NCBI RefSeq assembly: GCF_900129785.1
Contig: NZ_FSRC01000002.1
Location: forward strand, 62,001 to 126,000
Length of the DNA stretch: 64,000 nucleotides
Direction of reading: 5' to 3'
Source: Algoriphagus halophilus
GTDB lineage: Bacteria; Bacteroidota; Bacteroidia; Cytophagales; Cyclobacteriaceae
Each line of letters opens with the position of its first letter. The first letter of the stretch is position 1. Positions 27,048-40,694 of this stretch are shown one piece after another. A model generated the notes under the pieces. The model was not told where the DNA came from. It did not search any database and saw nothing but the letters and a program-made list of their open reading frames with translations. Both the position numbers and the translations under genes were made by a program.

Positions 27048-28325
27048 CTAATTTTCCACCTTTTTTCTCCTCACTACCTGAATGGTATTCCGGGTACTTT
27101 GTTCAAGTAGGACTTCATATCCTTCCAAATGCTCCGCGATAGAAATTTGTCCTGGATGCAAAATCGTGAGTAATTCCAGCCCCTCATTATACCTGATTTC
27201 AAAAAAGGGCTTCAGGTTGGTCAACAATTTCTCGAGCATAAACAGCTGAGAATCCATCACCAAAGAAATACTGATCGCAGAAATCTGCAGCATATTCACC
27301 CTAAGTTTTAATGCTCTTAACTGCTCATACACCTGATGAATCTGTTTCTCCTCAATAAAAGTAAAATCTGTCACCTTAAAACTTACCAAGAGCTGCTTCT
27401 CTTTTACAATGTAAGTGGGAACTTGAACTGTATGTTCGGTTTGATGAATTTTGGTACCATCAGAATCAGGCTTCAAAAATGATTTGACAAAAAGCGGGAT
27501 CCCAGCGATCGCCAAAGGCTTGATCGTCTTCGGGTGGATTACCGAAGCTCCATAATAGGTCATTTCCGCAGCTTCTTCATATCCGATTTCCTGAAACAAT
27601 ACCGTATCGGAATACCTCTTTGGGTCAGCATTCAGCACACCTGGCACATCTTTCCAAATAGTAACTGACTGAGCATTTAAGGAAGTCGCTAAAATTGCTG
27701 CAGAAAAATCGGACCCTTCCCTCCCTAAGGTAGTAGGAAGGTTTTGCTCATTAGATCCAATAAACCCCTGCGTCACGATTGGATAGGTTTCCAACAAAGG
27801 TCTCAGTTGGCTTTGACAAAAAGCCTTCGTCAAAGACCAATTAATTTTTGCAAAACGAAAGTCACTGTTGGTTTTGATGAATTCCCGTGCATCTTTCCAT
27901 AAAGTAATCATTCCTTCTAAACAGAGATACTCCATTACAATTCTAGAAGACAATAGTTCTCCATACCCTATTACCGAATCGTAATATTCATCATAAATCT
28001 CCTTGTTCAGGTCAAATTCAAGCCTTTTCTCCAATGCGATAAACAGATTTTCTAACAATAAAAAAATCCGGTGTCCGTTTGGAAATAGTTCAGAACAAAT
28101 CTGAAAATGAAATTCTTTTATTTTTGCACTATTCAAAGAATAGTCATTTCCGGAGAGTTTCAATTCCAATATAGATTCCAACGCATTCGTTGTTTTACCC
28201 ATGGCAGAAACAACAATCACCATATTTCTTCGCAATCGATTACGGAGAATTTCAGCCAAATTTTTGATTGCATCAGCATCTTTGACTGAGGCTCCTCCAA
28301 ATTTATAAACAACCATTTTTGCCAT
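27048..28325 (-). CDS. lysC: Aspartate kinase (monofunctional)
   Basis: Phosphorylates aspartate, the first step towards lysine, threonine and methionine. The 425-residue protein begins with the amino-acid-kinase motif VVYKFGGASVKD. TTLGREGSDFSAAI and WKDVPGVLNADP are aspartokinase signatures, and an ACT-like regulatory region follows from about residue 290. It lacks a homoserine dehydrogenase domain, unlike the ThrA in this window, so it probably feeds the lysine/diaminopimelate branch. Two nearby starts (28325, 28316) are possible. It is transcribed divergently from fbp. Confidence 0.92.
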   Translation of the reverse strand: MAKMVVYKFGGASVKDADAIKNLAEILRNRLRRNMVIVVSAMGKTTNALESILELKLSGNDYSLNSAKIKEFHFQICSELFPNGHRIFLLLENLFIALEKRLEFDLNKEIYDEYYDSVIGYGELLSSRIVMEYLCLEGMITLWKDAREFIKTNSDFRFAKINWSLTKAFCQSQLRPLLETYPIVTQGFIGSNEQNLPTTLGREGSDFSAAILATSLNAQSVTIWKDVPGVLNADPKRYSDTVLFQEIGYEEAAEMTYYGASVIHPKTIKPLAIAGIPLFVKSFLKPDSDGTKIHQTEHTVQVPTYIVKEKQLLVSFKVTDFTFIEEKQIHQVYEQLRALKLRVNMLQISAISISLVMDSQLFMLEKLLTNLKPFFEIRYNEGLELLTILHPGQISIAEHLEGYEVLLEQSTRNTIQVVRRKKVEN

Positions 28326-35165: not shown

Positions 35166-35194
35166 TGAGCCTTAATCTAGGCTCATTAGATACT
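35163..35194. terminator. Shared bidirectional terminator overlapping two stop codons
   Basis: A perfect 9-bp stem TAATGAGCC / GGCTCATTA (35163-35171, 35180-35188). The left arm includes the polyprenyl synthase stop codon and the loop holds the complement of the thrC stop codon. On the minus strand the stem is followed by a T-run that is the poly-Lys coding end of the other gene. Confidence 0.8.
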
Positions 35195-36470
35195 TTTTAA
35201 ATTCTTGAAAGTCATTTTCCAAAGGCTCCACCTTCTTTTGGCCAGTCATAAAAGCTGCTAGTCGCTCGGGCAACACCAGGGACTCTTCTAATGCCTCTTC
35301 CACTACATCCCTGAATTTACCAGGATGAGCGGTCTCCAAAAACACGCCTTGGTAGCCTGGATTTTCAGCCATAAAATCTTTTAACCCCTTATAACCCACC
35401 GCACCATGTGGGTCCAAGGTGTATCCTAGGGATTTTACTTTTCTCATCACCTCTACTGTTTCTTCATCGGTATAGAAATAACCCTTTACTTGTTCTTTCA
35501 GGATTTCTTCATTATTCCCGTAAAGGACCAATAATCTTGGGAAGTTACTCGGGTTGCCCACATCCATGCTATTGCTGATGGTAGGAATGGAAGCCATAGC
35601 CTCAAATGGGTTACCTCTCAAATAGTCAGGAACCACTTTATTGACATTGGTCGCAGCAACAAACATATCTATTGGCAAGCCCATTCTCTGAGCTAAAATG
35701 CCCGCAGCAATATTTCCGAAATTCCCACTTGGAACGGAGAAAACTACTTTTTCATTTGTTTTAGGTAGTCTAGAATAAGCATAGAAATAATACAATGCCT
35801 GCGGAATCCAACGAGCTATATTGATTGAATTTGCTGAGGTCAACAATAGTTTCTCATTCAATTCTTTATCTAGAAACGCCTCTTTGACCATCTTCTGACA
35901 ATCGTCAAATACACCTTCTACTTCTAATGCCTTAATATTCTTTCCAAGGGTCGTAAACTGCTTCTCCTGTAATTCACTTACCTTCCCTTTTGGAAATAAA
36001 ATAATGACCTCAACTCCCTCCACTCCTAAGAACCCATTGGCTACAGCACTCCCGGTATCTCCAGAAGTCGCTACTAACACACGAACTTTTTTATCTGAGC
36101 CTGTCAAAAGCATACTCATCAACTTAGAGCAAAATCTTGCCCCAAAGTCTTTGAAAGCCAAAGTTGGTCCATGAAACAATTCCAAACTATATATCCCCTC
36201 CTCTACTTGGACGATAGGAGCATCAAAAACTATGGTATGATCCACCAAGTCTTTAATTTCTTCTTTCGTCAAATCTTCAGAAAACAAAGCTCCCATCACC
36301 TGATAGCCGACCTCTTGGAAACTCAAGCCTGAAATATTTGCTATGAAATCCTTGGAAAGCGTAGGGATTTTTTCGGGCATGTACAAGCCTTGGTCAGGAG
36401 CAAGACCTTTGATCACTGCCTTTGCCAGGCTCACTTGATGCTGTGGATTGTTTGTACTATAAAATTTCAT
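35172..36470 (-). CDS. thrC: Threonine synthase
   Basis: PLP enzyme converting O-phosphohomoserine to threonine, the last step of the pathway. It has 432 residues with FHGPTLAFKDFGARF carrying the PLP lysine and VATSGDTGSAVANGF binding the cofactor phosphate. It is last gene of the thrABC operon, starting 3 bases after the thrB stop. Confidence 0.96.
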   Translation of the reverse strand: MKFYSTNNPQHQVSLAKAVIKGLAPDQGLYMPEKIPTLSKDFIANISGLSFQEVGYQVMGALFSEDLTKEEIKDLVDHTIVFDAPIVQVEEGIYSLELFHGPTLAFKDFGARFCSKLMSMLLTGSDKKVRVLVATSGDTGSAVANGFLGVEGVEVIILFPKGKVSELQEKQFTTLGKNIKALEVEGVFDDCQKMVKEAFLDKELNEKLLLTSANSINIARWIPQALYYFYAYSRLPKTNEKVVFSVPSGNFGNIAAGILAQRMGLPIDMFVAATNVNKVVPDYLRGNPFEAMASIPTISNSMDVGNPSNFPRLLVLYGNNEEILKEQVKGYFYTDEETVEVMRKVKSLGYTLDPHGAVGYKGLKDFMAENPGYQGVFLETAHPGKFRDVVEEALEESLVLPERLAAFMTGQKKVEPLENDFQEFKKYLMSLD

Positions 36471-36473
36471 AGT

Positions 36474-37415
36474 TTAATTCTTTTCTTCGAGCACATAGGC
36501 CCCTACTGTATTGATGGCAGAAAAATACACATCCACGCCTAGACCTATTCCTTCATAAATTTCTTCTGCGGCTTTGGCCATGGCAGCGGTTTGTTCTGAC
36601 CCTTTTGACAAAGCAAAAAGAGTAGGTCCCGAACCGGAAATCCCCATCCCAAGAGCTCCTGCCGCTTTCAAGGATTCTCTAACTTCATAAAATCCCGGAA
36701 TCAATACGGCCCTGTAAGGTTCAGCAATCACGTCCCGCATAGATCTGGATATTAATTCAAAATCTTCTTGGTATAATCCCGAAACAAACCCAGCAACATT
36801 TCCTGATTGGATAGTTGAATGCTTTAAGGGAATAGAATCTCTTAAAACACTTCTTGAATCAGAAGTATTCAACTCAAAATGGGGATGTAGTAAGGTACAA
36901 TACAATCCTTTAGGTACATGTAATTTTATAACATCTAAAGGATGGTAATCTCGGATCAATACAAATCCTCCCAATAAACTTGGCGCAACATTATCTGCAT
37001 GCCCTGCACCACATGCAGCTTTTTCAGCCACAATAGCAAAGGGCAATAAATCTTTACGTTCAAAAGGATCACCCAAAAGTCGATTGGCCGCCACTAAAGC
37101 TGCCACTGCACTCGCTGCACTGGAGCCCATTCCGGAGCCTAATGGAAGTCCTTTCCTCAACGCGATATCCATTCCAACTTGCTTTCCGTAGCTTTCTAGC
37201 ATTGCTTGGATAGCCACTGCGCAGGTATTTTTTTCTACTTCCCAAGGAAGTTTCCCTCCATCATCCTCAATAGAAACCACTCTTAGACCGGGACGATCTC
37301 TACGAGTTACTTCAACATAATCTCCCATGGCATCGATTGGAAAACCCAAAATATCAAAGCCACAGGAAACATTAGCTACCGTAGCTGGAGCGAAAGCTTT
37401 TACAGACCGCATCAT
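36474..37415 (-). CDS. thrB: Homoserine kinase
   Basis: GHMP-family kinase phosphorylating homoserine. The 313-residue protein has the ATP-binding motif GLPLGSGMGSSAASAVAAL, the N-terminal FAPATVANVSCGFDILG and the C-terminal GISGSGPTLFAL glycine-rich loop. It overlaps thrA by 4 bases and is followed by thrC after 3 bases, so the three are one translationally coupled operon. Confidence 0.96.
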   Translation of the reverse strand: MMRSVKAFAPATVANVSCGFDILGFPIDAMGDYVEVTRRDRPGLRVVSIEDDGGKLPWEVEKNTCAVAIQAMLESYGKQVGMDIALRKGLPLGSGMGSSAASAVAALVAANRLLGDPFERKDLLPFAIVAEKAACGAGHADNVAPSLLGGFVLIRDYHPLDVIKLHVPKGLYCTLLHPHFELNTSDSRSVLRDSIPLKHSTIQSGNVAGFVSGLYQEDFELISRSMRDVIAEPYRAVLIPGFYEVRESLKAAGALGMGISGSGPTLFALSKGSEQTAAMAKAAEEIYEGIGLGVDVYFSAINTVGAYVLEEKN

Positions 37416-39862
37416 TCTCGAGTATAGTTACCGATTCGAATTACATCTGCAAATACTCCTGCTGCAGTAACATCCGCACCAGCTCCTGGACCTCTGATGA
37501 TCATTGGGAAATCATGGTACCTTTCGGTAGTCAACAAAATCATATTGTCACTTCCCTGCAGACTGCTAAATGGATGATCCACCTTTAAGGAATTTAATCC
37601 GACTTTGGCAGCGCCATTTTCAAGAGTTGCCATGAATCTTAGTTTCTCCCCTTTTTCTTGAGCTGATTTTCTAACCTTTTCAAATTCCTGGTCATGCGCT
37701 TTTAACCTTTCAAAAAACTCCTCCACAGAAGCTGTAACCACACAATCGTCTGGCACCATCCCCTCTACTTTCACTGCATCAAATTCTAACGTTTGCTCAG
37801 CTTCTCTACCCAAGATCAAAATTTTACGTGCTACATCCATACCACTCAAATCATCTCTAGGATCTGGCTCTGTGTATCCTTTATCCTTTGCTATTCTTAC
37901 TACCTCGGAAAAAGATGCTCCTTTTTCAAATTCGGAGAAAATAAAATTCATAGACCCACTCAATACTGCCTCGATTCTGATGACACGGTCACCAGAAAGC
38001 ATTAAGTCTTGAAGCGTATTGATTACGGGAAGACCTGCTGCCACATTGGTCTCATAAAGGAATTTCACACCTCGCTTCTTGGCGATTTTTTTCAAGGCCA
38101 AATACTGATCCATGGATCCCGAATTGGCTTTTTTGTTTGGAGTGACGATTCCAATTTTAGCTTCCAAAATTCTAGAATAGGTATTGGCCACTTCCAAAGA
38201 TGCAGTACAATCCACCATCACTGAATTGGAGAAGTTCATGTGTTCCATCGTTTCGATGAATTTATTCAAATCCATCTTTTCGTCACTTTCGCTCAGCTGG
38301 TAAGGGTTTTTCAAATCAAAGCCATCTTCATGGAAAGCCATATACCGGCTATTGGCCAACCCGTGGATTTGGATATCCAGCATACTGTCCTGCTGAAGCT
38401 TTTCCTGCTGGGAGGCGATCATTCTGATCAATGCCTGCCCAATCAAACCAGTCCCTATCAAGAACACGTGCAGCACCTTATTTTCAGAAAGGAAGAATGC
38501 CTCATGTAATGCGTTCAACGCTTTCTGTAAATCCGCCTGAGGAATTACCGCAGAGATATTCAATTCAGAACTTCCCTGAGCAATTGCCGCTACGTTAATG
38601 TTATTACGACCCAATGCACGGAACATTCTTCCCGAAGCACCTGGGTTATGTTTCATATTTTCACCTACTACCGCTACTGTTGAGAAACCGTGCAGTAAGT
38701 TGACTTCTTCCATTTCACCAGACTTTATCTCATAGTGAAACTCCTTTTCCACTGCCTCTTTTGCCAAATAGGCCTCGTCAGTTTTGATGGCCAAACAGAT
38801 GCTGTGTTCAGAAGATGCTTGCGAAATCAATACGATATTTACCTCTGCATCTGCCAAAGCTTTAAAAACTCTACTGGTTCCAGAAACTGACTCAATTAAT
38901 CCTGCTCCCTGTACAGTCACAATAGAAATGTTGGACATGGAGCTCACTCCCTTGATCAAAGCCTCTTTGGTTACCTCGCTATTGATTTTGGTACCTGGAT
39001 TTTCAGGTTCAAAGGTGTTTTTGATATAGATGGGAATATTCCGCTTCATGGCAGGTTGCATGGTAGCCGGGAATATTACTTTTGCTCCAAAATGCGAGAG
39101 TTCCATCGCCTCATTGTAGCTCAATTGAGGAACAGTAAACGCTGTATAAACCAATCGGGGATCAGAGGTCAATACCCCTGAAACATCAGTCCATATTTCT
39201 AAATCTTCAGCTTCTAAAGCACCTGCAAAAATAGAAGCAGTATAATCTGAACCAGACCTTCCTAAGGTAGTAGTCTCGCCTTTTGAGGTAGAGGCGATAA
39301 AGCCAGTAATTACTTTTATTCCATCATTTTTCCCAAAATAACTTCTAATCAAGGCGTTGGTAGTTTCAAAATCGACCTTTGCCTGACCAAATCGATCATT
39401 GGTTCTAATTACTTCTCTGGCATCTAAAAACTGAGTTTTCAACCCTTTACCTGCTAATGACTCTGATAAAATAAAAGCAGATAATCGCTCTCCAAAACTG
39501 GCTACATAATCCAATGTTCTAGGAGAATTTTCTTTGATCAAGAAGGTACCATGAAACAAATCTTCCAGCTCTTTGAATCGAACTTTCACATAGGTCATGA
39601 CGGTGGACTGATTTTGGACAGAAATAAGCTGCCTTACCATATCCAAGTGCTTCTCTTCTAAACTTTGAAGCATATCCCTGTAAGCTTGATCTCCTTCTCG
39701 AGCCATTTGGGAAATCTTCAACAGACTCTCCGTGACACCACCAAATGCAGAAAAAACAATGGCTATTTCATGTTTCTTGAGCTTTTCCTGAATAATGGAA
39801 AATACTTTCTGGATGTTTTCGGGGTTCGCTACGGATGAACCACCAAACTTGATGACTTTCAT
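37412..39862 (-). CDS. thrA: Bifunctional aspartokinase / homoserine dehydrogenase I
   Basis: An 816-residue fusion. The kinase domain (about 1-290) begins MKVIKFGGSSVANPENI and has TTLGRSGSDYTASI; two ACT domains for allosteric control follow (about 310-460, including ISQASSEHSICLAI and GSSELNISAVI); homoserine dehydrogenase occupies 465-816, starting with LIGTGLIGQAL and containing SGSMNFIFSEF and YTEPDPRDDLSGMDV. It commits aspartate semialdehyde to threonine and methionine. The operon is preceded by a Thr/Ile-rich leader peptide and hairpin, pointing to attenuation by threonine and perhaps isoleucine supply. Confidence 0.97.
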   Translation of the reverse strand: MKVIKFGGSSVANPENIQKVFSIIQEKLKKHEIAIVFSAFGGVTESLLKISQMAREGDQAYRDMLQSLEEKHLDMVRQLISVQNQSTVMTYVKVRFKELEDLFHGTFLIKENSPRTLDYVASFGERLSAFILSESLAGKGLKTQFLDAREVIRTNDRFGQAKVDFETTNALIRSYFGKNDGIKVITGFIASTSKGETTTLGRSGSDYTASIFAGALEAEDLEIWTDVSGVLTSDPRLVYTAFTVPQLSYNEAMELSHFGAKVIFPATMQPAMKRNIPIYIKNTFEPENPGTKINSEVTKEALIKGVSSMSNISIVTVQGAGLIESVSGTSRVFKALADAEVNIVLISQASSEHSICLAIKTDEAYLAKEAVEKEFHYEIKSGEMEEVNLLHGFSTVAVVGENMKHNPGASGRMFRALGRNNINVAAIAQGSSELNISAVIPQADLQKALNALHEAFFLSENKVLHVFLIGTGLIGQALIRMIASQQEKLQQDSMLDIQIHGLANSRYMAFHEDGFDLKNPYQLSESDEKMDLNKFIETMEHMNFSNSVMVDCTASLEVANTYSRILEAKIGIVTPNKKANSGSMDQYLALKKIAKKRGVKFLYETNVAAGLPVINTLQDLMLSGDRVIRIEAVLSGSMNFIFSEFEKGASFSEVVRIAKDKGYTEPDPRDDLSGMDVARKILILGREAEQTLEFDAVKVEGMVPDDCVVTASVEEFFERLKAHDQEFEKVRKSAQEKGEKLRFMATLENGAAKVGLNSLKVDHPFSSLQGSDNMILLTTERYHDFPMIIRGPGAGADVTAAGVFADVIRIGNYTRE

Positions 39863-39928
39863 AAAGAATCTTGTAATGAGTTATTTGAACTAAAGAGGGC
39901 CAATATACGGCCAAAGGGGCGGGTACTA

Positions 39929-39955
39929 ATAATTAAAACACGGGATTACCCCGTA
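39929..39955 (-). terminator. Candidate attenuator hairpin of thr operon
   Basis: On the minus strand ACGGGG, loop TAA, TCCCGT followed by GTTTTAATTATT. The left arm overlaps the last two sense codons of the leader peptide, and the loop is its stop codon. The competing pair ATTAC/GTAAT (39957-39945) could form instead. Confidence 0.55.
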
Positions 39956-39981
39956 ATGGTGGTATAAATTCCTGTAGACAT
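39946..39981 (-). CDS. thrL: Candidate threonine operon leader peptide
   Basis: An 11-residue frame, MSTGIYTTITG, then TAA, ending 83 bases before thrA on the same strand. Four of 11 residues are Thr and two Ile, and the TTIT cluster echoes the Thr/Ile-rich leader of enterobacterial thr operons. The final codons form the left arm of a GC-rich hairpin followed by Ts. A ribosome stalled on the ACC ACC pair would cover that arm and prevent the terminator, letting thrABC be read. This mechanism is inferred by analogy. Confidence 0.6.
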   Translation of the reverse strand: MSTGIYTTITG

Positions 39982-40277
39982 GAAAAAAGATGTACGCGCA
40001 ACTGCTCCACGTAAAATGTACAGGTTGTCTGTTAATGATGTGTTTGCTGCAAATACCATATCCGAAGAATTGACACGACAATCTTAACGCCAAATTTTTG
40101 ATATGCCAAACAATCCCCTAGAGTTTTTCAAAAAAGTTACTATTTATTTAAGAAATCGATAAAAATTCTATCAAATTGAGCTTTTCACACTAAGTATTAT
40201 CTGATTTATTAATCAAACCCGAAAGAGTATTTGGGCTGAAAATTTTTTAAATTGATCGAGCAATAATCACAAATTTT

Positions 40278-40694
40278 ATGAAGGCTTTTAAACTATTCCC
40301 CATTTTTTTGTTGGTGTTTCTCCTGGTTGAATGTAAGACAATCCAAAAAACAGCCATGGACCAGTTAGGAAATGTCACGTGGATACTTCAGGAGTTAAAT
40401 GGAAATTCGGCTATTTCAGAATTGTTCCCAGAAAGCATACCAACTTTGAATTTCAATGATACCGGTACACTTAGTGGATTCACAGGCTGTAATAACTTTT
40501 CTGGAATCTATAGCTTGGAAGATTCGGACTTAAAACTAGATCCAGGAGCAATGACCAGAAAAGCTTGTCCCGATGTGAAAGAAGATGAGTTTCTGCAAGC
40601 CTTAGGAATGGTACATTCCTTTGAGTTGAATCAAAATAAACTAATATTAAAAGGGCCAGCAGGTGATTTGATGACGTTTATTCCTCAAAATTAA
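40278..40694 (+). CDS. META domain-containing lipoprotein (HslJ-like)
   Basis: A 138-residue probable lipoprotein with signal and lipobox LLVEC (Cys about 20). The META/HslJ domain follows: TWILQELNG, NFNDTGTLSGFTGCNNFSG and MTRKACPD are its conserved blocks. HslJ-type proteins are linked with heat shock and motility or resistance phenotypes elsewhere; no function is established here. Its stop overlaps that of the opposing GreA-like gene by 4 bases. Confidence 0.85.
   Translation: MKAFKLFPIFLLVFLLVECKTIQKTAMDQLGNVTWILQELNGNSAISELFPESIPTLNFNDTGTLSGFTGCNNFSGIYSLEDSDLKLDPGAMTRKACPDVKEDEFLQALGMVHSFELNQNKLILKGPAGDLMTFIPQN

Follow-up and report, generated by a model that had tools for sequence, protein, structure and literature searches.

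The window analyzed here, a 64-kb stretch of DNA (64,000 nt), carries on its minus strand thrA, encoding an 816-aa bifunctional aspartate kinase/homoserine dehydrogenase (37412..39862; NF006959, 1030 bits), followed by thrB, encoding homoserine kinase (36474..37415; NF002288, TIGR00191), and thrC, encoding threonine synthase (35172..36470; TIGR00260). The closest named genome match is Algoriphagus lutimaris, whose thrA is 99% identical. A leader had been predicted upstream of thrA on the same, minus strand, and this is what we found, with thrA, thrB and thrC as the downstream genes. The divergent gene beside the leader (40278-40694, plus strand) encodes a META-domain protein. A second aspartokinase-like frame (27441-28316, minus strand) lies about 7 kb from thrC and is 35% identical to thrA residues 1-295.

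The original prediction described an 11-residue frame, MSTGIYTTITG, and this frame is present, with its ATG at 39981, its TAA stop at 39948-39946, four Thr and two Ile codons. As the full leader, however, the 11-codon frame is ruled out by a conserved longer frame, which opens at the ATG at 40059 and comprises 37 codons plus TAA (39946..40059, minus strand; translation MVFAANTSLTDNLYILRGAVARTSFFMSTGIYTTITG, 37 aa). Frames occur at the matching place in L001-L015; L001-L004 retain the long form, MVFA start included, and Cyclobacterium (L007-L010) retains the start. The frame ends with ATT TAT ACC ACC ATT ACG GGG TAA, 83 nt upstream of the thrA start (39862), and the putative control codons ACC ACC ATT ACG (Thr Thr Ile Thr; 39952..39963, minus strand) abut and enter the 5´ arm of a hairpin, P1. 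Further upstream is a promoter-like pair (40079..40110, minus strand), TTTG (40110-40107) and TAAGATTG (40086-40079), spaced by 20 nt and identical in boxes and spacing in L001-L004. The pair has one mismatch to TTTG / TAnnTTTG, which we take to be the promoter consensus of the phylum; on that consensus, the transcript would start at about 40072 and span the whole leader frame. A sigma-70 type scan flags this place too, but an equal number of sites arises by chance.

P1 (UACGGGG UAA UCCCGUG; 39939..39955, minus strand) is the predicted GC-rich hairpin, whose loop is the stop codon; most Thr-rich leaders of the family also have a hairpin over the stop. Behind it on the minus strand lie a T-rich stretch, TTTTAATTATT (39928..39938); GTACCCGCCCC (39916..39926), at what appears to be the position where relatives from other genera carry CATATNGCCC; and a second hairpin, P2 (GGCCGTATATTGGCC; 39898..39912), which was found by a scan and has two-sided changes in relatives. 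The T-rich run proposed to follow the hairpin is thus there in the window, but it does not hold as a feature of the genus: L001 has it, and L002 and L003 have CCCGTTCAAAAATCAG in its place. Its non-conservation led us to reject the T-run as a defining feature. With up to two mismatches, the hairpin sequence ACGGGGTAATCCCGT occurs once in the 64-kb window, against 0.02 occurrences expected from shuffles.

The leader peptide is kept across the family. For the family survey, 148 genomes were searched, thrA was found in 122, and one upstream region was taken from each of 90, the window included; frames were scored for Thr codons blind to hairpin and motif. At 48 of the 90 loci, a short frame has four or more Thr within 10 codons close to its end, compared with 8 of 450 shuffles. 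Exactly three occurred at 14 further loci, a number that shuffles often reach too (64/450), and at the remaining 28 loci no 10-codon stretch held as many as three Thr. In 42 of the 48 Thr-rich leaders, the stop codon is spanned by a hairpin of five or more pairs (92 of 960 shuffled stretches), and [CT]ATA[TC] begins 6-12 nt past the hairpin in 35 of those 42 (89 of 840 in the control), although the loci are related, so that these counts are not independent events. Among the six Thr-rich leaders without the hairpin are three classical leaders (L070, L077 and L082) and three that, by eye, have shorter stems or a shifted frame (L052, L053 and L060). The seven with the hairpin and without the motif are the window, L019, L020, L031, L046, L054 and L055; the first three make up the window's genus in this group. 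The expectation that Thr leader and hairpin would be conserved in relatives is borne out.

Codon positions were compared in 52 non-redundant compact thr leaders, which were chosen for having the motif, so that their motif columns are biased. These remained after de-duplication of a 55-row set, defined by a CATAT-like string near a hairpin beginning AC and containing near-duplicates from two collections. Codon -2 specifies Thr in 47 of the 52 and codon -5 in 44, and ACC, ACT, ACA and ACG all occur at codon -5. Since different synonymous codons are used where Thr itself is conserved, it is the decoding that is conserved, and not the DNA alone. The P1 region folds better than 95% of shuffles in 33 of the 52. 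The majority arms are ACGGGG..CCCGT, and in other genera they are swapped to the ACCCC/GGGGT type. Such C-rich-then-G-rich arms are found at seven family loci (L090, L092-L095, L099 and L100) and at five of the 40 loci (L116-L119 and L122) fetched in a phylum survey, which returned 227 thrA matches and drew on six further loci already in the set. The swapped arms change as a unit and lie 6-10 nt before the motif, a distance similar to that of the unswapped arms. MAFFT misaligned them (alignment A2), and in a 33-sequence alignment P1 is nearly invariant and thus uninformative there by itself. In L011, the G-run is one base shorter and the leader stop falls beyond the hairpin; as L011 comes from a low-coverage MAG, this frame shift may be an assembly error.

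A similar arrangement precedes hisG. This gene was found in 112 of 118 family genomes, and 30 loci were examined, of which 13 have a TTCCTC-type arm, the stop codon and a GGAGGAA-type arm, followed at 8-9 nt by CATATCGCCC or a similar string. Two loci, L165 and L176, were removed from the his motif set, as their match lay inside or before the leader and was spurious. The P1 arms of these his leaders are of the UUCCUCC/GGAGGAA type, and in 12 of the 13 P1 is better than 95% of shuffles. The other 17 loci depart from this pattern, and inspection by eye shows near-variants among them as well as U-tailed leaders. Upstream of hisG in the window's own genome (L148), the leader ends ...HAVQHHFHHSS and has a hairpin over its stop codon; CATACCCGG and another, longer hairpin come next, and no U-run follows them. 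This layout is a variant of the same compact form as in the thr leader. Outside the family, the compact layout was seen at one of 12 hisG loci (L226), and the hisG loci of family f7, which appears to be Flavobacteriaceae, have U-tailed terminators by eye. The 3´ arm of the his hairpin, GGAGGAA, is a Shine-Dalgarno-like string with no apparent use (for example in L169 and L180); the phylum is said to use Shine-Dalgarno sites little.

These comparisons bear on the explanation that a Thr-rich stretch and an unrelated hairpin lie together by chance. The whole 221-nt leader RNA indeed folds no better than shuffles (z 0.66), which agrees with chance, but the conservation over genera, families and two amino acids largely refutes such a pairing, which we regard as extremely improbable. 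The sequence comparisons instead point to a real conserved regulatory leader upstream of thrABC.

The original prediction took P1 for a conventional terminator. As scored by a terminator d-score after d'Aubenton Carafa and colleagues, P1 of the window is borderline (-6.6), and it was accepted by a simple terminator scan with the tail TTTTAATTAT, as was P2 (two found, against a shuffle mean of 0.3). This first reading was therefore reasonable, and L001, too, retains the T-run. However, the homologous hairpins are without U-runs: the tail is missing in the genus mates L002 and L003, and the d-score is above zero for one of 55 compact thr hairpins and none of 13 his hairpins, compared with eight of nine classical thr leaders of relatives by the same score. 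When the best hairpin anywhere in the 110 nt before thrA was taken instead, only L010 (0.7) was above zero among 55 sequences (50 of the 55 thr rows plus the window, L002, L004, L006 and L020), and the top hairpins of L002 and L004 scored -43.5 and -32.8. We thus consider it very unlikely that thrABC has a conventional attenuator in which P1 and the T-run make an intrinsic terminator.

The compact layout that had been proposed fared better. The control codons abut the hairpin, and no antiterminator stands out in the thr leaders by a duplex test that, with hand-chosen segments, caught five of eight classical controls and so has limited power. In that test, pairing of the 3´ side of P1 with downstream RNA was better than 95% of shuffles in one of 52 thr and none of 13 his leaders, and downstream pairing of the 5´ side of P1 was better than 95% of shuffles in one of 52 thr and five of 13 his leaders. 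Two features expected of an amino-acid attenuator can thus be recognized at the sequence level, codons for the product amino acid upstream of the genes and the placing of these codons in or next to a hairpin, and two others, a U-run intrinsic terminator and, by the limited-power test, a mutually exclusive antiterminator, are not found.

What the hairpin does have behind it, in many thr and his leaders, is CATATNGCCC at about 9 nt. With 5-13 nt allowed, the motif lies 7-10 nt from the hairpin in 51 of the 55 thr rows. The motif is absent from the window's own genus (the window, L001-L004, L006, L011, L013 and L020). Two genomes, G096 and G040, contain 26 and 23 CATATNGCCC sites, more than the reversed-pattern control (17 and 4, respectively), and at two sites in each a hairpin ends 8-10 nt upstream; these four are the thr and his leaders, all with the stop codon in the hairpin. 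Since 45 of the 49 sites have no hairpin ending 8-10 nt before them, we rejected CATATNGCCC as a general terminator tail. Two other G096 sites (L190 and L208) have hairpins 5 and 13 nt away and lack a leader frame. The his arms differ from the thr arms and the motif is constant, so pairing with P1 is an unlikely mode of action for the motif. Base pairing between the leader-end GGGG and the motif's CCC, an idea suggested by Cyclobacterium, was considered by eye and likewise discarded: although the leader-side arm is C-rich in the his leaders, CGCCC is retained in the motif, and the duplex test singled out one of 52 thr leaders. It is quite possible, though somewhat less likely than not, that the stop-codon hairpin with CATATNGCCC at about 9 nt is a transcription-control signal in its own right in Bacteroidota, a U-less stop or a long pause for the RNA polymerase of this phylum that serves thr and his leader peptides, in which the position of the ribosome would be read by one hairpin without antiterminator or terminator.

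We propose, at a probability of about one half, that a compact, ribosome-mediated attenuator with a leader peptide controls thrABC in response to threonine, and that the stalled ribosome would mask P1 directly. Whatever follows, it is highly probable that the leader ribosome is the means by which the element senses threonine. In this model, the leader ribosome would read Thr codons that run straight into the 5´ arm of P1. When charged tRNA is short, it would stall on a Thr codon and cover the 5´ arm, P1 would not form, and polymerase would proceed into thrA; without a stalled ribosome, P1 would form while polymerase sits at the motif, whose near-constant distance could supply the wait for polymerase, as a hairpin-stabilized pause site. 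We infer leader transcription, stalling, pausing of polymerase at the motif, P1-dependent termination or arrest, and the response to threonine. A ribosome at the stop codon would cover P1 as well, and its release takes about 1 s in the E. coli trp model, according to an extract of PMC1183508, so our model needs a long polymerase pause. In addition, because P1 is a non-canonical terminator, we infer rather than observe that polymerase stops on its account.

The main rival to this model moves the decision elsewhere. In E. coli trp, the 1:2 hairpin has control codons in its 5´ strand and the stop codon in its loop. P1 has the same topology, and might be a synchronizing pause hairpin only, with the decision taken later, at P2 or through a factor that leaves no sign in the sequence; segments 3 and 4 of the general trp scheme (extract of PMC1183508) were not found in the window leader. 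A locus from another family (L109) has the full trp-like set, namely such a hairpin, a 2:3 antiterminator and a U-tailed 3:4 terminator. Moreover, a hairpin-dependent pause needs its hairpin close upstream of the RNA end, and the 10-nt spacer given in the part of PMC9291695 consulted would put that end at the CATAT motif. P2 offers a candidate for the later step, as the 33-sequence alignment shows two-sided changes at two of its four pairs (in 8 and 3 sequences). A whole-structure test placed three of five measures above all 500 shuffles, the other two being reached by 236 and 108 of 500, and versions of the structure slid along the alignment were worse on three measures and equal on two, with the tested structure itself derived from the same 33 sequences. 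However, the P2 region is better than 95% of shuffles only in 12 of 52 thr and three of 13 his leaders and has no consistent U-run, and no pairing competitor stands out in the thr leaders. P2 as a terminator was rejected, given that a T-rich tail follows it only in a few loci (L006, L013 and L015). A mere pause would also end as soon as a ribosome arrived, whether or not it was starved. We therefore judge a pause-only role for P1 unlikely, though it is the alternative to be taken most seriously. P2 is widespread before thrA (for example in L035 and L053), and in some clades it is followed by AT-rich strings, for instance TACATTTTAACC or CATATTATAT.

The leader ribosome could also control Rho-dependent termination, RNA stability or thrA translation, and not hairpin-driven termination. 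In favor of this, the compact leaders are without a convincing intrinsic terminator, and roughly 60-150 untranslated bases separate the leader stop from thrA. Under such control, on the other hand, the near-fixed distance between hairpin and motif is unexpected, and an unsystematic look noticed no structure sequestering the thrA start. Control of these kinds seems to us quite improbable, and direct masking of P1 by the stalled ribosome remains our preferred model.

Known leaders share parts of this arrangement. Enterobacterial thrL is a short frame rich in Thr and Ile codons ahead of thrABC. The window leader shares with thrL (RF00506) the short upstream Thr/Ile-rich frame before thrABC; it differs in having no antiterminator that stands out and no conserved U-tailed terminator, and in having the stop codon inside the hairpin. 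At the gathering score, the Rfam model RF00506 (Thr_leader) has no match in the window, whose sole Rfam match, to an unrelated lncRNA family (E 0.52), is due to chance; relatives L112, L092 and L070 have RF00506 matches below threshold. In E. coli pyrBI, a leader ribosome over the hairpin blocks it directly, without an antiterminator, and the system senses UTP through the speed of polymerase and has a U-tailed terminator. Direct occlusion by the ribosome without an antiterminator is common to pyrBI and our model, whereas UTP sensing and the U-tail set pyrBI apart. The classical leaders of Bacteroidota (thr L070, L077, L082 and L112-L114; ilv L149; trp L152; phe L212; his L225; and RF01692), partly from the same genome, likewise have codons for the product amino acid. 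Unlike the compact leaders, they have a U-tailed terminator (scored for thr, judged by eye for the rest), and several have an antiterminator.

Leader-peptide control in Bacteroidota has already been reported. RF01692 is a trp leader of the phylum (PMC2864571, in extract), and the portion of a Flavobacterium psychrophilum transcriptome study that we consulted gives hints that leader-peptide attenuation operates ahead of amino-acid operons and describes 5´ elements that are conserved upstream of pheA and hisG and match no Rfam family (PMC9723704). Leader-like short frames are mentioned in general terms in an extract of a Bacteroides transcriptome study (PMC7366714). No description of a compact thr or his leader in Bacteroidota was found in the extracts of open-licence literature searched. 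If our model is right, a minimal amino-acid attenuator would consist of one hairpin and a polymerase signal other than a U-run. Such an attenuator would open a way into polymerase pausing and termination in Bacteroidota, where sites of this type would escape terminator finders that look for U-runs, and would also provide a short building block for sensors.

A direct comparison is possible within one genome, since both kinds of leader occur there, compact for thr and his and classical for ilv and trp. By eye, the classical U-tailed leaders of the window's own genome are L149 (MFKVVILLSLIILIGC, before ilvD) and L152 (MKTIAATYWWWHFDSFQGEAQKARA, before a trpE-type gene). RF01692 (Bacteroid-trp) has no match in the window and reaches 33.5 bits in L152, against a cut-off of 49. 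L152 also contains, near the trpE-type gene, a Bacteroidales_small_SRP RNA (RF04183; 212-305, minus strand; 75.2 bits, above the cut-off). Upstream of pheA, Phe/Tyr-rich leaders with U-tailed terminators were seen by eye in five of 12 genomes (L212, L214, L216, L219 and L220).
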